A stretch of 64,000 nt of DNA from Bartonella tribocorum CIP 105476 (GTDB lineage: Bacteria; Pseudomonadota; Alphaproteobacteria; Rhizobiales; Rhizobiaceae). The notes beneath the pieces are model-generated. The model made no database searches and was not told the origin of the DNA. It was given only the letters and a program-made list of their open reading frames with translations. The stretch spans positions 1,488,001-1,552,000 of the forward strand of contig NC_010161.1 of assembly GCF_000196435.1 (NCBI RefSeq). Direction: 5' to 3'. The position numbers and the translations under genes are program-made. The first letter of the stretch is position 1, and the number at the start of each line of letters is the position of its first letter. Of this stretch, positions 51,214 to 60,316 are shown piece after piece.

Positions 51214-51996
51214 TTATAAACAAGCTATGACAATTGTAGCAGCAGCCTTAAACTCAGCTTTTTTGTGAGCACGGTGTGCCATTGTCTCTTTATCTTTTCC
51301 CCATTGTTCCATCATCCAATCTTCATCTAAATGGGCAATAGACCAAGCATGATCCGCATCAATTTTTCCCGCAGCAACAGCAAGAGCAATAAGAGCAGAT
51401 CCCGTTAAGGTTGTCATCATATGAAGTGCAGCAAGCATATAAGGAGACTCAACGCTACGCAAATAATGACTCACAGCTTGAAGTGCCTCTGGTGATTGTT
51501 CCACATGCATCAGCCCTTCTGTCAAATAAAACCGTGCACCCAGTTTTTCTTCTGCCCAATCTAATAAAGGATCCCATTGCTCAGATTGTTTTTGCACCAA
51601 CTCTTTAGGTGTTTGTGCACGATAAAAGATCATATCACAGGCAACGAAACGCAATAAATCTTCAAAAACAACCTGCATATCATCAGCGATACCATCAATA
51701 ACAGTATTCACCAGACGCGTCATTGGCATTTTTGTTGGATCAACAACGTGCTTTTGGCTCTCAAATTCCTGAGCAATGAACTCAGCAAACACTTCCGTTG
51801 GCACAAGAAAAGGGCGCTTTGCAGGCGTTTTAACGGGACGTTCATCCAATAAAATTGTAAAATCGCCCTCCTCACAAGCAATTTTCACTTGCTTATAAAA
51901 CCGTTTGGGGTGTGATTGGCATGAAACATTTTGAGTATTCTGAACAGAACTATTTTTATTTAAGGGTCTATCAAAATGATTCAAAATTTCACGCAT
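51214..51996 (-). CDS. ATP12 family F1-ATPase assembly chaperone
   Basis: 260 residues. It contains 'RFYKQVKIACEEGDFTILLDERPVKTPAKRPFLVPT', 'FAEFIAQEFESQKHVVDPTKMPMTRLVNTVIDGI', 'VACDMIFYRAQTPKELVQKQSEQWDPLLDWAEEKLGARFYLTEGLMHVEQ' and 'LTGSALIALAVAAG', all diagnostic of ATP12. The protein binds the F1 alpha subunit during ATP synthase assembly in mitochondria and Alphaproteobacteria. It is convergent with the exported-protein gene, 10 nt apart. Confidence 0.92.
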   Translation of the reverse strand: MREILNHFDRPLNKNSSVQNTQNVSCQSHPKRFYKQVKIACEEGDFTILLDERPVKTPAKRPFLVPTEVFAEFIAQEFESQKHVVDPTKMPMTRLVNTVIDGIADDMQVVFEDLLRFVACDMIFYRAQTPKELVQKQSEQWDPLLDWAEEKLGARFYLTEGLMHVEQSPEALQAVSHYLRSVESPYMLAALHMMTTLTGSALIALAVAAGKIDADHAWSIAHLDEDWMMEQWGKDKETMAHRAHKKAEFKAAATIVIACL

Positions 51997-52746
51997 ATTA
52001 CTTCACCTCTGATATTTCAAAAAACGATTGATTTTCAAATCCCTATATATCTTATTTAAGATTTAAAGTGACTTCTTTCCCTATCCTAAATGAACGAAAA
52101 ATCTTACCAATTCTAATCTGATTTTAAATATATCCTTTATTTAACGAACAAGACAATGATCTTGTCTATATATTCTAAAAACAGTTGTTAGAATAATTTT
52201 TGAAAAAGTTCTATCTTACTTAAAAAACTGAATGCATTAAATTTACTGATGAAAATGCGTTCATCACCTTCAAGTTATCCATCTACAAGAGCGGCTTCCA
52301 CACACATTTCAGTCTTTTAAATGCTTTTCACAAAATTTTAAAGCAGAAAAACGTACATCCTTCAAAATATGGAGAAGTGTATTTTACTCATCAGTATACC
52401 TTTCAGCTGCAAAGGCACCCCAATTATTCGTCTCATATAGTTACCCATGCGTAAAGTTTTTCCTGCCTAATATCACAACCCTAAAAAGAAGTATTTGATA
52501 GTGTAATAGGATAACCATCATTGCCTCAAAATAGCTAAATTAGAATTATTCTTTGCACAATAAAACAATTTATTATTTAATTTTGTAGCATATTTTTATT
52601 AATATTGTTTAATAATATTTGTAACAATACGGTATTAACTCGTAAATTTGTATTAAAATATATTAAAAAATCTAAATTAAATTATAATTAACTAATTATT
52701 CTTAATATATTTCAGTAATTTATTTATATAATTAAAAGAATAGATC
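51997..52746. other. Spacer with diverged ~360-bp repeat and AT-rich promoter region
   Basis: No gene seen. Bases 52098-52470 resemble 56968-57327. The last ~200 bases before the metabolite operon are extremely AT-rich, which fits a promoter of horizontally acquired genes. Confidence 0.6.
52098..52470. repeat. Diverged ~360-bp direct repeat, copy 1
   Basis: Shares ordered blocks with 56968-57327, the longest being AGACAATGATCTTGT preceded by TATTTAAC, then GCTAGAATAAT-like, AAAAACTG, CATTTAC-GCATCAT-like and TTCCTGCCT. Confidence 0.7.
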
Positions 52747-53303
52747 ATGCAATCTGAAAATAATCCTTTTATCTATACACTTGGCCCTGCAGATACTAAC
52801 TGTGCAGCTGCAGCACAATGGTGGCTTGACAATCACAATCAAAATATTTCATCCACTCACTCAAGATCTCGTATTATCTTATACGCAACTCTTGAAGAAG
52901 CATTTAATGAACTTGTTCAAAAAAAGATGGTTATCTCCTAAGCTGTGCTGCTTACCCTGATTTGCACACACTCATATTTACCCGTTTAGGTGACATGCAA
53001 TTATTTGACAGCTTTATCATGCCTACTCACTCTATGGTTTTAGCTAAACGCAACAACGCTGATGAAATTAAAACCGTAGCGACTCATCCTGCCCCTCAAT
53101 CTTTGGCTCATCAATACGACAAAATATTTGCCAACAGCAATGCTGATGCAGCCGTTCTTTGTAATGCTGAAAAAGCAGATGCTTGTATCACAACGTCAGT
53201 TGCGGCAAATCGCTATAAGCTAAGGATTATCGAAAATTTTGGACAAGTGCCAATGGCTTTTTTGCTCCATTCGTTAAAGTCAGCGCATCATGAAAAAATC
53301 TGA
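52747..53303 (+). pseudogene. BacA-like prephenate decarboxylase-family gene, frameshifted at an A7 tract
   Basis: The first frame (52747-52941) reads 'FIYTLGPADTNCAAAAQWWLDNH' and stops; the -1 frame continues from the A7 tract (52919-52925) as 'KDGYLLSCAAYPDLHTLIFTRLGDMQLFDSFIMPTHSMVLAKR' to 'RYKLRIIENFGQVPMAFLLHS'. Order and motifs parallel Bacillus BacA ('TLGPEGT', a Pro-x-Tyr core, 'KYGL..V..F..IPMSW'), which decarboxylates prephenate without aromatisation in bacilysin synthesis. An A8 tract would restore one ~186-residue frame. It may be dead or rescued by slippage. The next gene starts within its end. Confidence 0.68.
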
Positions 53304-54495
53304 AGCACTTCTTTCCATTGTTAACTTGGTTGACAAATTCCGTATGCGCCAAGAACGAGATGGGAGTATTAAGGAACCAACTCTAGCAGATAATAATATG
53401 ATCAGTGAATTGATCACTCTGCTGAATCACCATGCCAATATTCTGGACGGACTATCTCCAAAACTTTTAGCGATCACTTCTGAGGATCTTCATCAGTGGA
53501 TGCTCAGTGGTTTCACTACTCCTCCTAAATTTGATAACACTTTAGCTGCTTTCAAAGCACCATTACCAGATGCTCCCTTGTTTTTCTTGGCTCCCATGCG
53601 TGCAACGAACGGTCCTGATCCAGAAGGATTCCGGCTGGAATTAGTTACAGGATATCGTCATGAAACGACCTATCTTGCTGATGCCTCAAAATATACCAAT
53701 AATTATGTATCACCATTTCAATGTATAAAAATGGGAATAGCATCAAAGGGGTTTTTAGAAGGCAATTGCATTGTTCTATTCCCAGAATCTGTGGCAACCG
53801 CTAAAAAAATTGATAAGCAAGCATTTGCTTTGTTTTTTTTCAGCAAATTCTTTGATATTTACAACAAGCAGACAATTGTGGAAGCTGAACGTTTACTCGG
53901 TCGCGATAGTAAATTTCTGTTCGGTCAATTGTATAGTCGTAACTTATCTAAAGAGGACATTTATGATATTCGCTGTTTGTGGGGCTATTATCATGACTAT
54001 GCACATCATACCGGACCGCGGCCATTGGATAAAAATCTATATATAAAATTAAATTGGTTTACAGGTCTTCTAGAAGAAATTAAAGTTGATTTAATTACAG
54101 TGCGTATGATGCTACAAAATCATCCAAAATTTTGGAAAGAAATAACTGAGTTTGTCCTCTTAGAACGCATATTCCGTTATCCAAAAGGTTCTGATCAACA
54201 TATGACATTCGATGCTGGTACAGGAATCTTACTTTTTGAAATATTGATGCGTAACAAAGCATTGATTGAAACGGATCGGGGGTATCTTCAATTTGATTTG
54301 GAGCGTCTTGAAGCAGTAATAGTATTGATGATAGCAGATATAGAAGCACTTGAAACATTAGATGATGATGCTTATTTGGCAGGCGCTAAAGATTATATCC
54401 AAAATAATCTTGGAAAACCGCAAACTTCACAGTCAAGATTTAATTTTTCAACTTCATCTTATGCACAGCGCGTTATTGGGGGATTAAGTCATTGA
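53290..54495 (+). CDS. Uncharacterised ~400-residue protein, possibly DUF6421-type
   Basis: 401 residues, mainly helical. Noticeable segments are 'KFRMRQERDGSI', 'APMRATNGPDPEGFRLELVTGYRHET', 'IRCLWGYYHDYAHHTGPRPLDKNLYIKLNWFTGLLEEIKVDLITVRMM' and 'FRYPKGSDQHMTFDAGTGILLFEILM'. The HDYAHH cluster with 'EEIKVD' could bind a metal, as in diiron or HD-like proteins; this is inference. The resemblance to DUF6421 is from memory of the motif. It overlaps the BacA-like gene by 14 nt and the exporter by 4 nt, so it should act in the same pathway. Confidence 0.75.
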   Translation: MKKSEALLSIVNLVDKFRMRQERDGSIKEPTLADNNMISELITLLNHHANILDGLSPKLLAITSEDLHQWMLSGFTTPPKFDNTLAAFKAPLPDAPLFFLAPMRATNGPDPEGFRLELVTGYRHETTYLADASKYTNNYVSPFQCIKMGIASKGFLEGNCIVLFPESVATAKKIDKQAFALFFFSKFFDIYNKQTIVEAERLLGRDSKFLFGQLYSRNLSKEDIYDIRCLWGYYHDYAHHTGPRPLDKNLYIKLNWFTGLLEEIKVDLITVRMMLQNHPKFWKEITEFVLLERIFRYPKGSDQHMTFDAGTGILLFEILMRNKALIETDRGYLQFDLERLEAVIVLMIADIEALETLDDDAYLAGAKDYIQNNLGKPQTSQSRFNFSTSSYAQRVIGGLSH

Positions 54496-55439
54496 GTTTC
54501 TTAAAAGGACGGTTATTCTTATTTACTTTTGCCATTCTCGCATTGTTTTCCATAAGTTGGTTATTATCTAAGAATTTGGTGAGCAATATACCAGTCATGC
54601 ATGCGGTTGGACTGAGGTTGTTTGCTACTGCCGCCGCCTTATGGTTGATTGCACTATTGCGTGAGAAAGCTGTTTTCAGATCCCTACCATTACTTTCCAT
54701 GATCCCTCCTTTTTTCATTCTATCAGTGTTAGGATTCTCGCTGTACTTTGTATGCAGCTTTGGTGCATTAAAATCGCTCAAAGCCAGTGATTTAACCATG
54801 GTTCTCGCCACTATTCCAGGAATTACCTATATATTGGGGATATTGACGAATAGCCTTATGTTTTCATGGTTCAAGCTTATCGGTATGATCATTGTCAGTA
54901 TAGCTGCTATAGCATTCAATATAAACAGTGTAGAGGGGGAATATTACAGCCTCATAGGAATAGCTCTTGCTTTAACAGCAGCGCTTTCTTACTCTGCTTA
55001 TGGCTTATTGTCTAAACGTTATCTTAAAAATTTACCTTTGCTCACCTCACTGGCTTGGATCACGACAATTTCTGCAGCGTCATTTATGCCGTTATTCATT
55101 TTTGATCCTGCTCCAATCTTATATCTTAATTTAGAAGATATATTTAAGATTTTGATTTTAGGAACTATTTGCTCAGCACCAGTTTACGTTTTGTACCAAA
55201 AAGTTTTAGCTGAGGGAGGTGTATTATACGCCAACACTATTGGTGTATTATCTCCTTTTGCAGTCGTTGCATGTGAATGGATAATTGGCTCGAGCACCTC
55301 TCTCAATATTATCAAAATAATTGCTATGATGATGGCTGTTATAGGAATGACACTCTTATTTATAGATGCATCAAAGGTATCTGAATGGCAACAGAAACGT
55401 CGTGCTCAAAATTCCAAATTTAATGAGGAAACACAATGA
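54492..55439 (+). CDS. EamA/DMT-family exporter
   Basis: 315 residues with about ten transmembrane helices in two EamA repeats ('LFLFTFAILALFSISWLLSKNLVSNIPVMHAVGLRLFATAAALWLIALL', 'YSLIGIALALTAALSYSAYGLLSKRYLKNLPLLTSLAWITTISA'). It starts at a TTG that overlaps the previous stop by 4 nt, and overlaps the ligase gene by 4 nt. It probably exports the operon product or gives self-protection. Confidence 0.86.
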   Translation: MSFLKGRLFLFTFAILALFSISWLLSKNLVSNIPVMHAVGLRLFATAAALWLIALLREKAVFRSLPLLSMIPPFFILSVLGFSLYFVCSFGALKSLKASDLTMVLATIPGITYILGILTNSLMFSWFKLIGMIIVSIAAIAFNINSVEGEYYSLIGIALALTAALSYSAYGLLSKRYLKNLPLLTSLAWITTISAASFMPLFIFDPAPILYLNLEDIFKILILGTICSAPVYVLYQKVLAEGGVLYANTIGVLSPFAVVACEWIIGSSTSLNIIKIIAMMMAVIGMTLLFIDASKVSEWQQKRRAQNSKFNEETQ

Positions 55440-56701
55440 AAAAACTCGCGTTAGTTTGCCAACGCAATGCAAAACTACCATTTATATTTGAAGCTGCCAA
55501 GGCAGCTAATATCGAATTAGTAATGATCTATGATACCGCTGAAAGCGCTCCTACTCAACTCCCCGCAGCAGTAACTTCAACTTGGCAACTTCCTGTTTTT
55601 GATAAACCAGAAGCAGCTCTAGACACTTTTGCAATGGGAGTAAAAGAACGCAATATTGCTGGGGTTATGACCCTTCGTGAAGAAGCAATTCTATGGACAG
55701 CTTTGGCTTCAAAAAAAATCAACACTCCAAGTATTGAACCAGAAGTAGCAGCATTAACCAGAAACAAATATCTCATGCGTCAAGCTTTTTCTAAAGCAGG
55801 CTTAAGAACACCAAGATTTCTTTATATAGACAATCCAGAAGATCTATCACAAACACATGGCTTGGATTATCCGCTCGTTATTAAACCCGTCTCTGGATGG
55901 GCGAGTACAGGCGTAATGTTAGCTAAAAATTCCGCTGAACTTCCTGGCCTCATTAAAGCCGTATGGAATGTTCAGCATAAAGACATGGCACGTTTTAATG
56001 ATAAAAATAAACCTATAGGTTTAGTCGTAGAACAGTATTTGCCAGGAAAAGAATTTGTCGTAGAATGTTTTGTTGATACAGCAGGTGTGCATGTTTTAGC
56101 CGTTGGCGACAAAGGACAACCTGAAGGACCATGGTTTGAGGAAACAATTTATCGTCAACGCTGTGATAGAGATGATCCTTTAATTATTGCTTTATGTGAG
56201 GTTGCATGCTCGGGCGTTAAAGCTCTTGGTATAAACATGGGTGCTGCCCATGTAGAGCTACGTCTCGATGCTCATAATTTACCTTATATCATTGAGATCG
56301 GCGCTCGTATAGGTGGATCAGGTGTCTCCCATTTTATTGTGGAACAAGGAACAGGAGTTTCATTTGCAAAACTCTGTATGAAAGCAGCTTTAGCGGAACA
56401 AACCCCAGACCTTCCTGATATACTCCCAGCTAAAAAAGTGGCTGCAAATTACATTATTCCTCTTCATGGTTATGGACGCTTCTGCGGATTTTTAGGTTTA
56501 GAGAAGGTTGTACAGCATCCTCAAACCACCAAAACTATAATTTTCTTTGAACCTGATCATATTTCACCACCTCCACCAGCATTTGGTGGATATCCTGGTT
56601 TTATTTTCTCTGTTCATGCCTCAGATCAAGAAGCGCGCGATTACCATAAATGGCTTGATAATACCTTAAGCATCCTATGGAAACACCATGTTGATCAATA
56701 A
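55436..56701 (+). CDS. ATP-grasp ligase, BacD/L-amino-acid ligase-like
   Basis: 421 residues. N-terminal pre-ATP-grasp domain ('KKLALVCQRNAKLPFIFEAAKAANIELVMIYD'), then 'NKYLMRQAFSKAGLRTPRFLYI', 'YPLVIKPVSGWASTGVMLAKN' (ATP-binding Lys), 'LVVEQYLPGKEFVVECFVD' and the metal site 'AAHVELRLDAHNLPYIIEIGARIGGSGVSHF'. These match carboxylate-amine ligases that form dipeptides, such as BacD, rather than carbamoyl-phosphate or biotin carboxylases. It probably joins an amino acid to the product of the BacA-like step. It is last in the coupled operon. Confidence 0.86.
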   Translation: MKKLALVCQRNAKLPFIFEAAKAANIELVMIYDTAESAPTQLPAAVTSTWQLPVFDKPEAALDTFAMGVKERNIAGVMTLREEAILWTALASKKINTPSIEPEVAALTRNKYLMRQAFSKAGLRTPRFLYIDNPEDLSQTHGLDYPLVIKPVSGWASTGVMLAKNSAELPGLIKAVWNVQHKDMARFNDKNKPIGLVVEQYLPGKEFVVECFVDTAGVHVLAVGDKGQPEGPWFEETIYRQRCDRDDPLIIALCEVACSGVKALGINMGAAHVELRLDAHNLPYIIEIGARIGGSGVSHFIVEQGTGVSFAKLCMKAALAEQTPDLPDILPAKKVAANYIIPLHGYGRFCGFLGLEKVVQHPQTTKTIIFFEPDHISPPPPAFGGYPGFIFSVHASDQEARDYHKWLDNTLSILWKHHVDQ

Positions 56702-57562
56702 CCCTATAAAGATTCCACTCAATCTAAATTTTTATATAAATTTCATCGATACAGGAAAAATCACAAGGCGATTTCCTAAAATTTCGCAAACACCTTTTTA
56801 TTAAAGATGCATATTTCAAAAACAAAAGATTGAAAAAACTATAACCTATTTTTACAGCGCATTTTAATAGAAACTCTTCAATATTTCTATATTCGAAATA
56901 ATGACGACCTATAATCGATTTTTTCGACATAATCACCCTCTTATCTCCACATCTCAAAAGAGAAAAAAGACCTTACCAACCCCACTCTGATTTAAGAATT
57001 ATATTTTCATATCTATTTAACAGACAAGACAATGATCTTGTTCATATATTCGACAACAGCTGCTAGAATAATCTTTTTAAGAATTTATCTCGATTTAAAA
57101 ACTGGAAATGTTGAATTTGATAGTGATAATTCACCCACAACCCTGCACACTTTCCATCTAAAAAGAGAGGCATATACTCTCACATATTTTTAAGATATTC
57201 CTCACAGAATATAACGCAAAGCAGAAAAGTGCACTTCACAAAAAATACGAAATGGTGCATTTACGCATCATCCATCTTTGCTTAACAGCAAACGCCCTCA
57301 ATTAAAAATCAATACCTTCCTGCCTTTCTTAATGCCCCCGTCAAACGACGGTATTTTACAGTATATAGGACAACAATGCTGCTATTAAAAAACTGACGAC
57401 GAATGCATCTCATATCTTGGTAAAACAACACAAACAGATTTAGAGTTTCACTGACACATTCTTTTCAAAGCATTTGAGTCCCTTATCAATGAAACAAAAA
57501 ATTCAAAACAACGTGATCCTTTTATATTTATCAAAACACATGGATTATTTTAAAAAAAATTA
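56702..57562. other. Spacer with second copy of ~360-bp repeat
   Basis: No firm gene. A 77-codon minus-strand frame at 56724-56957 (inner start 'MSKKSIIGRHYFEYRNIEEF') has no clear ribosome site and is left uncalled. Repeat copy 2 is at 56968-57327. Confidence 0.55.
56968..57327. repeat. Diverged ~360-bp direct repeat, copy 2
   Basis: Same ordered blocks as 52098-52470, in the same orientation. Together the copies bracket the four-gene operon. Confidence 0.7.
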
Positions 57563-60316
57563 TTAAAAATGATAACGTAATCCACCAGAAAAACGCACGC
57601 CAGAAAAACCTGCCTTGGTTAGCTTATGCTGATAGCTAAGATCACTGTAAAGTGTAACTTTAGAGGAAAATTGTGCATTAATACCCAAACCTGTTTCTAA
57701 AGAAGAACCAAAAGCACCTAACTGGAAAACATCTTTTAGATGAACAAATTGTTTTTCACCAAAACGATGTGCAAAATGAATATTGCCCTTAAAGAAAATG
57801 ATATGATCCTTTTCAGATGCTGTAAATATTTTACTTAAATATCCTCCAATACGCATCAACCACTGATCCCCTTTTTTCATCTCAACATCAAATCCATCAA
57901 TATCACGAAACTTATCAAATTGAAGGTGTTGATAAATAAGCTGAATCTGCGGATCAAAAATAAGACCTTCATGTCCTGTCATAAACGCTTTACCAGCAGA
58001 CAACGAAACATTCAGAGGATTTGCTTTTAATGTCGCCGTCTTACCCCAAGCATACGTAAGCACATCACCTTTCAAAAAACCATAAGATAAAAGACCGTCT
58101 ACATAAAAACCAGTATTGTGTTCCACACTACCGTATGCCGTAAATAACCATTTATTAAACGGACTCTTTTGACTTTGTTTTACGTTACGAGGTTGTAAGG
58201 AAAGCTTCCCATAACTTCCCATCATTCCAAAAGATATCGTACTATATGCCCTCTCTATCGTTTTGAGTAAGATGTCTGTTTCTATAGCGTTATAATCAAC
58301 ATGACCATCGTAGCCATATTCAAGAGCAGAAAGATCTGAAACATACCGAGAACTCCCACCATAACCATAAACAGATAAAGCAAAATTTCCTTCAACTTTT
58401 AATAATTTACGAGAAATAGACCGCGTCGTTTGCAACTTCTTTTGTTGATTATTAATATCCATAATCCCCACATGAAACAAAGCATTTTGTAACAGAAGAT
58501 AGGTCGGAACTTGTGGGACAACTTCCCTAATCTTTAGCTCAGAATGAGGAATAACAGACATCCCTAAAGCAGGCTGAATATACTTACTTTCAAGGCGAAA
58601 ATCCCAAAAATCTCCCTCTCCTTCAACCAATCTTTGAGAAGTTTTTGCTGGTCCAAGAGAAGAAGCTGGACCATAGCCATTAAGATAATATTGGTAAGGC
58701 AAACCCTCTAAGGCAATATAAGCACGATTTAACTGAAAAGAATCCTCTGCCGCTTTTCCAGAAACCTGAATAAGTGAAATACTATGAGCATTTTCATCCG
58801 TTGCTATCTCCTCCTGTTTTCCTACAACAAATTGCACATAAACTGTCGTTTTTCCAGAAACATTACCGTGTATCAAAAGTCGATCAGTCTTTTTATTATC
58901 GAGCAAACCATCACTCTTGAGATGTGTATTGAGATAAATATCCGCCTTATCTTGCGCATTATAAACTTCTTTTTCTCCCTTCCCAATATAAAGTGTCTGA
59001 TACTCGTGAAACATTGGGGAGGCAAAAGCAATAAAACTATCAGAAAGTTTTACAAATGAAATAAACGAACTTGTCCGATTTGCAGCGTGCGAATCTGTTT
59101 TTCTTCTTCCTGTCAAAAACCACTTTGATCCTTTTGTCAAATAAAGCTCAGCAATAGAATTATCATCAACACGAGTCCCCCCTATCAATGAAGAAGAATC
59201 TGCCAAAATCGCTACAGTCCCCCCTTTTTCAGCTGTTAACAATAAATCACCGGAAATTTTTGTGCCTTCTGTTACTCCAATATAACTCCGACTGTTATGA
59301 CTATGAATAGCTGTTCCAGCTGGAACCTCAAAAACGGTCCTTTTCAAAAAAACAAGTCCCTGTTCGAACGCATTATTCTCTCCTCCCATTTCAAAATGCA
59401 TACCATGCTTGTTTCCTATTGCCTTAATGGTTGAATCTTCAATATTAACCCGCGAAATTAAAATATTTCCTTTCCAACCGTCCCCAGATTGTGTGTTAAA
59501 ATCTTGTCCAACAGTTAAAACATGAACATCCGTAGAAATAATATTCGTATTTTTTAAATAAATAGAACCCTGCTGTTTTACATTGAAAACTGTATGTGCA
59601 ATTTTTTCATTTGTATTTTCTCTATCTTCTGTTTTTTGATGTTTTGAAGTAATGGTAACATTATCTAAAGTTGCACGCCCCCCTCTCCCCACATAAAGAG
59701 CAGCGGCATCATTCACATCAATAAATCCTCCTTTCATCTGAATATCCGCATCAGCACTAACGAAAAGAGCACTCTCTTGACCAAGACCCTGCCCCTCCAC
59801 TTTAACTTTTGTATTCGTTAACGTAACAGATGCTCCTACTTTCTCTGCATAAGCAGCGACCTGAGACGCTTCAATCGTTCCACGATTGACCTCAATCATT
59901 CCACGATCAGCTTTAAGACCTATTGATACATTTTTAAAAGCTGAATCGCTCAAGACAATTTTTCCCCCTTGCGATACAACAGCACCATAAAGATCCTCTA
60001 TACCCGCAATACCTTCAACCTCTATACGCATTGCCTGAATAACTGTATTTGGCTTCTGCACTCCTATAGCAGCAAGCAAAGTGAGAGAACTCCCCTTTTC
60101 ATTCTTTGGTTTAACAGGTGTCGTGAACTTATATATTTTATCACTAATTGTATGCTTTGTACCATCACTGCATTCATAAGGTAATTTTTTTTCATCACAT
60201 GACAGTGATACAAATGAGCGAGAATGCGCCTCAATATTTATGTTTAACAAAAAAGAAAAAATAGCTGCTGTAAAAACGCACGAGTACAAGCGATTATTAG
60301 ATATCTTGATTACCAT
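57563..60316 (-). CDS. Autotransporter of the Iba/Cfa-like type
   Basis: 917 residues. Signal peptide ('MVIKISNNRLYSCVFTAAIFSFLLNINIEAHS'), a passenger (to ~620) built of parallel-beta-helix turns ('GAVVSQGGKIVLSDSAFKNVSIGLKADRGMIEVNRGTIEASQ'), a linker ('QPALGMSVIPHSELKIREVVPQVPTYLLLQNALFHVGIMD') and a C-terminal beta-barrel (~640-917) ending 'GVRFSGGLRYHF', the required terminal Phe. Classical type V secretion places the passenger on the cell surface. Bartonella has arrays of inducible autotransporters with this plan. The substrate or receptor is unknown. Confidence 0.9.
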   Translation of the reverse strand: MVIKISNNRLYSCVFTAAIFSFLLNINIEAHSRSFVSLSCDEKKLPYECSDGTKHTISDKIYKFTTPVKPKNEKGSSLTLLAAIGVQKPNTVIQAMRIEVEGIAGIEDLYGAVVSQGGKIVLSDSAFKNVSIGLKADRGMIEVNRGTIEASQVAAYAEKVGASVTLTNTKVKVEGQGLGQESALFVSADADIQMKGGFIDVNDAAALYVGRGGRATLDNVTITSKHQKTEDRENTNEKIAHTVFNVKQQGSIYLKNTNIISTDVHVLTVGQDFNTQSGDGWKGNILISRVNIEDSTIKAIGNKHGMHFEMGGENNAFEQGLVFLKRTVFEVPAGTAIHSHNSRSYIGVTEGTKISGDLLLTAEKGGTVAILADSSSLIGGTRVDDNSIAELYLTKGSKWFLTGRRKTDSHAANRTSSFISFVKLSDSFIAFASPMFHEYQTLYIGKGEKEVYNAQDKADIYLNTHLKSDGLLDNKKTDRLLIHGNVSGKTTVYVQFVVGKQEEIATDENAHSISLIQVSGKAAEDSFQLNRAYIALEGLPYQYYLNGYGPASSLGPAKTSQRLVEGEGDFWDFRLESKYIQPALGMSVIPHSELKIREVVPQVPTYLLLQNALFHVGIMDINNQQKKLQTTRSISRKLLKVEGNFALSVYGYGGSSRYVSDLSALEYGYDGHVDYNAIETDILLKTIERAYSTISFGMMGSYGKLSLQPRNVKQSQKSPFNKWLFTAYGSVEHNTGFYVDGLLSYGFLKGDVLTYAWGKTATLKANPLNVSLSAGKAFMTGHEGLIFDPQIQLIYQHLQFDKFRDIDGFDVEMKKGDQWLMRIGGYLSKIFTASEKDHIIFFKGNIHFAHRFGEKQFVHLKDVFQLGAFGSSLETGLGINAQFSSKVTLYSDLSYQHKLTKAGFSGVRFSGGLRYHF

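Follow-up and report, generated by a model that had tools for sequence, protein, structure and literature searches.

What does a small operon of amino acid-handling genes make in Bartonella tribocorum CIP 105476, and does it still work there? We analyzed a 64,000-nucleotide stretch of this genome (contig NC_010161.1, positions 1,488,001 to 1,552,000; hereafter, the window), in which an earlier note had described an intact, bacilysin-like operon encoding a BacA-like protein, a protein with an HDYAHH cluster, an EamA exporter and a BacD-like ligase. We consider it fairly probable that the operon is a pathway in partial decay, probably gained by horizontal transfer, whose exported product is a dipeptide or similar compound built with a non-proteinogenic amino acid derived from prephenate. 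The operon is not intact, gene 1 being split between two frames in the window genome, and its parts are the following (PDT, prephenate dehydratase):

Gene 1, first piece, 52747..52941, plus strand: N-terminal part of a PDT-like (BacA-like) protein, ending in a stop after an A-run, by frame analysis
Gene 1, second piece, 52911..53303, plus strand: the remainder of the PDT-like protein in another frame, overlapping gene 2 by 14 nucleotides
Gene 2, 53290..54495, plus strand: 401 amino acids; DUF6421, by homology an Fe/pterin-dependent amino acid oxidase of the PolE type
Gene 3, 54492..55439, plus strand: 315 amino acids; EamA/DMT-family transporter, a probable exporter (PF00892, 81.4 bits)
Gene 4, 55436..56701, plus strand: 421 amino acids; ATP-grasp L-amino acid ligase (PF13535, 68.3 bits)

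Genes 2 to 4 are open frames in the window genome, and the overlaps along the operon are 14, 4 and 4 nucleotides. Of the four overlapping genes that had been described, these features were thus borne out, but gene 1 does not read as one frame. The family assignments to PDT, DUF6421, EamA and ATP-grasp held by Pfam, while the label "BacD-like" failed.

The proposal that the genes belong to one pathway gained support from other bacteria, in which the gene set recurs. Our search produced 19 related loci, 15 from Bartonella and four from Pseudomonas (P. salomonii, P. edaphica, P. cichorii and P. batumici). In all four Pseudomonas loci the four genes are open, stand in the same order and are accompanied by a conserved aminotransferase gene, the only addition to the conserved set; the 14-nucleotide overlap between genes 1 and 2 is identical, and gene 2 is ~70% identical there. 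The P. cichorii aminotransferase is of the IlvE type (NF009897, 477.6 bits). Among 72,556 plasmid records, DUF6421 was found in seven; a PDT-like gene adjoins it in five of them, an ATP-grasp gene is present in four of these and an EamA/DMT gene also in three:

Pantoea SS70 plasmid: EamA, ATP-grasp, PDT-like, DUF6421
Pantoea X85 plasmid: EamA, ATP-grasp, PDT-like, DUF6421 split over two frames
Staphylococcus xylosus plasmid: DMT, ATP-grasp, PDT-like, DUF6421, the last lying across the record start
Pseudoalteromonas plasmid: aminotransferase, PDT-like, DUF6421, two ATP-grasp, luciferase-like oxidoreductase, FMN reductase and a fusion of 3-deoxy-D-arabino-heptulosonate 7-phosphate (DAHP) synthase with chorismate mutase
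Serpentinimonas plasmid: PDT-like, DUF6421, NTF2-like, LysE

No match to gene 1 was found in the corresponding region of the Tsukamurella and Burkholderia records. The Pseudomonas and plasmid clusters thus have the PDT-like and DUF6421 core in common, and the ligase except in Serpentinimonas, but the order of the genes, the kind of transporter and the additional enzymes differ among them. A second plasmid search, using a Streptomyces protein as the query, gave no genus beyond those of the first, and a Proteus record bore no annotation. An even sample of 369 genomes from the class to which the Pseudomonas genome belongs contained DUF6421 once, in the center genome itself. In the gene-2 tree, the Bartonella proteins (6 rows, support 100/100) grouped with those from Pseudomonas and metagenomes (16 rows, 95/94), and the plasmid DUF6421 proteins fell outside this branch. 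This grouping and the patchy occurrence suggest horizontal transfer.

If the genes form one pathway, its character depends on the first of them. The second piece of gene 1 matches PF00800, the PDT family, with 28.7 bits over 52962–53300; the unbroken P. cichorii homologue of 186 amino acids scores 22.8 bits, just below the cut-off of 25.2. A profile comparison matched the gene 1 family to canonical PDTs with 94.5% probability. In the predicted structure of the P. cichorii homologue (predicted local distance difference test score 88), the top four PDB matches were chains of the prephenate dehydratase 6vh5, at a template modeling score of ~0.6, followed by 3mwb and 2qmx, with GqqA and periplasmic-binding domains also appearing at lower ranks; a PDB sequence search with the homologue returned weak matches only, to other folds. 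The earlier note had tied its reading to a prephenate decarboxylase/dehydratase fold for gene 1, and the predicted fold is of the PDT type.

The motifs of the family tell a different story from its fold. TRF is catalytic in PDT, and BacA itself is not known to carry it. We aligned 151 gene-1-family rows, consisting of 144 proteins chosen by their likeness to gene 1 (from two listings, one of 59 and the other the best 120 of 683) and seven plasmid loci, partial and closely related rows included. TR was found in none of them, the Thr column being Met in 147, Ile in one and a gap in three, and EN[ST]xxG was equally absent from all, whereas both TRF and EN[ST]xxG were present in each of four canonical PDT controls, three of these from Bartonella. 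HP[AS]P was retained in 147 of the 151 rows. Given the PDT fold in the model, the gene 1 family is therefore a PDT fold minus the tested PDT motifs. The window genome also encodes a chorismate mutase, one Aminotran_4 protein and a canonical PDT distinct from gene 1, so the cell has prephenate at its disposal, with gene 1 as a divergent second copy. That gene 1 is after all an ordinary PDT serving phenylalanine synthesis, as the PF00800 match might be taken to say, has almost no probability in our view: the two motifs are missing from 151/151 rows, a canonical PDT is already in place and the 186-residue homologue is too short for the C-terminal half of the 287-residue canonical protein. The closest described chemistry is that of BacA, which decarboxylates prephenate without aromatization (PMC9147277). 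By analogy, gene 1 may work like BacA, a likeness of function that does not imply kinship with the Bacillus enzyme.

Gene 2 matches PF19985 (DUF6421) with 65.6 bits against a cut-off of 25, so that the DUF6421 check proposed for the HDYAHH protein came out above the gathering score. The metal motif of the PolE family is defined as HE/DXXHX(21-23)E in PMC12614342, and gene 2 has H235, D236 and H239 followed by E262/E263 (X22 and X23), these residues being invariant in 25/25 aligned sequences. The PolE fold was confirmed, with 17–19% identity to PolE by structure, and gene 2 belongs to the PolE family by fold and motif. The HDYAHH protein is without counterpart in the bac operon, as had been noted, but does not found a new enzyme family. 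By homology, it would be an Fe(II)-, O2- and pterin-dependent amino acid oxidase; GTP cyclohydrolase I, encoded in the window genome, would supply the pterin. PolE itself, part of the polyoxin pathway, is described as an Fe/pterin-dependent L-Ile 3,4-desaturase (PMC12614342). Gene 2 differs from PolE in having D where the PolE motif has E and in having Phe at two positions that align with Tyr residues mutated by the PolE depositors, a change that hints at another substrate. In contrast to the polyoxin setting, there is no PolF-like gene among the four genes of the operon.

For gene 4, the earlier note had allowed that the ligase might group with an unrelated ATP-grasp family. We found instead a near full-length match to the L-amino acid ligase BL00235 (3vot; residues 2–418 of 421, E 4.8e-84), its best solved relative. 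BL00235, from Bacillus licheniformis, prefers Met and Leu. Gene 4 is a putative amino acid ligase that, on its homology to BL00235, may form dipeptides; unlike BL00235, it shares its operon with genes that may make an amino acid. Matches to BacD reached only E 1.4e-7 or weaker, and with the BacD equivalog model NF053745, which has a cut-off of 850, gene 4 scored 32 bits and its P. cichorii homologue 41 bits. With BL00235 closer, we rejected gene 4 as a BacD-type alanine–anticapsin ligase, and with it the "BacD-like" label. The assignment of gene 3 to the EamA family was upheld.

Put together, these families suggest the following route. Gene 1 would remove CO2 from prephenate without making an aromatic ring; the resulting keto acid would be aminated by an IlvE-type aminotransferase, cluster-borne in Pseudomonas and perhaps chromosomal in Bartonella. 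Gene 2 would then oxidize or desaturate the amino acid, gene 4 would join the modified amino acid to a second one, and gene 3 would export the dipeptide. What the sequences show directly are the families and folds, the lost and the conserved motifs, the recurrence of the set, the break in gene 1, the deletion common to nine genomes and the contrast in selection; the transfer, the substrate, the order of the reactions, the product, the direction of export and the role are inferred from these. Such a route would point to a so far undescribed family of small peptides exported by unrelated bacteria, with a PolE-family Fe/pterin oxidase, beside a BacA-like enzyme, carrying out the key step. The strongest hint to the substrate is the DAHP synthase–chorismate mutase fusion of Pseudoalteromonas, which places the prephenate route inside one cluster. 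The same fusion speaks against an alternative that we regard as doubtful, namely, a branched-chain product, for which gene 2, like PolE, desaturates L-Ile or a relative, the aminotransferase works on Ile, Leu or Val and the PDT-like protein is otherwise employed: the specificity of PolE for L-Ile, the IlvE-type aminotransferase of the Pseudomonas clusters and BL00235 as the nearest solved ligase would all suit such a product, but the fusion suits prephenate and not Ile, the PDT-like gene adjoins DUF6421 in 5/7 plasmid records and 4/4 Pseudomonas loci, and the two Tyr-to-Phe changes hint at a substrate other than that of PolE. The probabilities that we attach to this and the other rival explanations are not mutually exclusive.

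Several observations weigh against the prephenate-derived dipeptide. The IlvE-type aminotransferase also suits branched-chain substrates, and PolE acts on L-Ile, with traces of activity on Val and Leu and none on other proteinogenic amino acids (PMC12614342). The sets on plasmids are only distantly related: their transporters were not matched by gene 3 at E 1e-3, and for Pseudoalteromonas the aminotransferase, a class IV Aminotran_4 protein, and the ligase are only 26 and 28% identical to the queries. The "BacA"-named kin of gene 1 are Streptomyces proteins that carry the label from their source and are 42–50% identical; the "BacA-like" description stands for a PDT fold without PDT motifs, as a BacA-like enzyme might have, and its kinship figure comes from the Streptomyces namesakes only. 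All four genes were open in none of 24 Bartonella genomes with gene 4, in a survey that covered a single region per genome, the surroundings of gene 4 (one of the regions, L078, a short contig). Finally, a PDT-like gene stands without DUF6421 nearby in the Phaeobacter inhibens plasmid region examined (L106). In all, 58 Phaeobacter plasmid records match gene 1 and, among the matches listed, are annotated "prephenate dehydratase"; because the L106 protein has no TR motif and no DUF6421 nearby, this annotation may be wrong.

How far, then, does the likeness to bacilysin go? Like the bac operon of Bacillus, the set combines a transporter and an ATP-grasp dipeptide ligase with a PDT-fold protein thought to use prephenate, and the fuller clusters add an aminotransferase. 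Unlike bac, the operon has no BacB, BacC or BacG: none of these domains was found among the four genes at 52747–56701, the remainder of the genome not having been searched for them. The aminotransferase of P. cichorii and Pseudoalteromonas is of class IV (IlvE type) rather than a fold-type I enzyme as BacF of bac, the transporter is EamA in place of BacE, the ligase is nearer to BL00235 than to BacD, and there is an Fe/pterin-type oxidase where bac has none. The logic of the operon is thus bacilysin-like, without the parts that define bac (the BacD model, BacB, BacC and BacG in the operon, and the BacF type). We found no description of the set of BacA-like protein, DUF6421, ligase and transporter in the literature, most subscription journals lying outside the coverage; the one paper found to name DUF6421 dates from October 2025.

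In the window genome, the route is interrupted at its first step. Starting from the ATG at 52747, the gene 1 frame stops at 52941 and the remainder lies in another frame at 52911–53303, the break falling within an A-run at 52919–52925. The first piece is 52% identical to residues 1–60 and the second 76% identical to residues 59–185 of the unbroken P. cichorii homologue (locus L080), and the unbroken 185-residue protein P0052, compared by eye, is one residue off the two window pieces. With gene 1 broken, the full pathway is probably not running in this genome, and the strain probably lacks the first pathway step. The break sits in a homopolymer and the near-identical P0052 is unbroken, as would be expected of an error in this assembly; we nevertheless think an error unlikely, as gene 1 is disrupted in six further genomes (five broken, one with a stop) and absent from the searched region in 14/24. 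The same counts indicate that gene 1 decay is common in the genus. Less likely still, and to our minds improbable, is the idea that the broken gene 1 still yields its protein, through ribosomal slippage or a change in A-tract length. The window tract holds A AAA AAG, the slip motif of dnaX, in the –1 register, and tract length is unequal among close relatives, which would suit phase variation; against slippage, relatives have an intact frame with no need of it (L071, L074 and L076 have gene 1 open, and P0052 and P0053 are unbroken). As the window's tract was found in none of 18 other Bartonella loci compared at the site (12 genomes, several loci being the same contig), the break is not a conserved programmed frameshift. 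The variation in tract length itself, seen between the window (52919–52925) and loci L008 and L019, might permit phase variation.

Decay in Bartonella is uneven along the operon. Copies of gene 4 with at least 83% identity occur in 24/71 genomes of the genus, or in 31/71 with weak ATP-grasp matches counted. Of the 24 genomes, three have an open gene 1, five an open gene 2, 15 an open gene 3 and 18 an open gene 4, the last count taking in three copies with a stop at the very end. In the genome closest to a full set, that of L070, gene 1 is cut by a stop at residue 167, and no match to the Pseudomonas-cluster aminotransferase was found in any of the 24 regions. Unbroken copies exist in other strains, for gene 1 as P0052 and P0053 (B. 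grahamii, 46 member sequences) and for gene 2 as P0001–P0005. In nine genomes gene 1 and the greater part of gene 2 are gone at one alignable junction, most simply explained by one deletion; four of these were covered by a search for DUF6421 (G017, G019, G032 and G035), and it gave no match.

Using these nine genomes, we compared the pooled pairwise ratios of nonsynonymous to synonymous substitution rates (dN/dS). The gene-2 remnant had a ratio of 0.707, compared with 0.205 in gene 3 and 0.193 in gene 4, with stops skipped and frameshifted pieces taken apart, which probably lowered the value of the remnant. Among the four genomes with both genes 3 and 4 open, the corresponding values were 0.639, 0.178 and 0.181, and the same piece of gene 2 had a ratio of 0.257 in the five other genomes in which gene 2 is open. 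These ratios come from non-independent pairs, the remnant amounts to ~88 codons and the nine genomes represent one ancestry rather than nine independent losses. The low ratios of genes 3 and 4 in comparison with the remnant indicate that purifying selection on them outlasted the loss of the amino-acid-making end; having been selected without genes 1 and 2 in some Bartonella, they therefore seem to serve some purpose by themselves. The retained ligase and transporter may make a simpler dipeptide or protect against an amino-acid antimetabolite.

A possible, if still minority, explanation is that the Bartonella ligase and transporter form a protection or scavenging unit that turns a toxic or host amino acid into an exported dipeptide and has no need of genes 1 and 2. 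The dN/dS contrast after the shared deletion agrees with this, as do the greater numbers of open copies of genes 4 and 3 than of genes 2 and 1 and the lack of DUF6421 matches in the four deletion genomes covered. However, within the nine genomes gene 3 is open in only four and gene 4 in seven, which shows the pair itself to be decaying, and the shared ancestry and non-independent ratios weaken the contrast. Such a unit would be compatible with the prephenate-derived dipeptide for the intact set elsewhere. The Bartonella genomes provide a natural experiment, with one deletion, nine descendants and a ligase and transporter still under selection, and the pattern makes the role of these two genes on their own directly testable.

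A more far-reaching scenario, which we offer as conjecture with the chances well against it, is a present or recent chemical rivalry among rodent Bartonella that have hosts and fleas in common. Strains in which the operon is complete would export a dipeptide containing an oxidized cyclohexadienyl amino acid, made by the undescribed pairing of a BacA-like decarboxylase with a PolE-like Fe/pterin oxidase; species that lost genes 1 and 2 would retain the ligase and the EamA transporter for immunity, others being sensitive, and the enzyme pair would travel on plasmids between Bacillota and Proteobacteria.

The operon lies on the plus strand between two minus-strand genes, one at 51214–51996, which we take to be ATP12-like, and the other at 57563–60316, an autotransporter with AC_1 and Autotransporter domains. 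No Rfam family at its gathering score and no tRNA was found in the 64-kb window. A direct repeat of ~150 bp surrounds the operon (52097–52244 and 56966–57118, 73% identity) and may be the trace of an insertion or of the deletion; in the deletion genomes, as judged by eye, sequence resembling the flanking repeat precedes the gene-2 remnant. A homologue of the autotransporter follows the operon or its remnant in 8/15 Bartonella loci, some of the loci stopping short. In genome G024 the operon is split, genes 1 and 2 and the start of gene 3 (L004, L012) lying ~40 kb from the rest (L075), with broken frames. In L071, L073, L074, L075 and L076, the ATP12-like gene is downstream of the operon and not upstream, and local rearrangement therefore separates the Bartonella groups.

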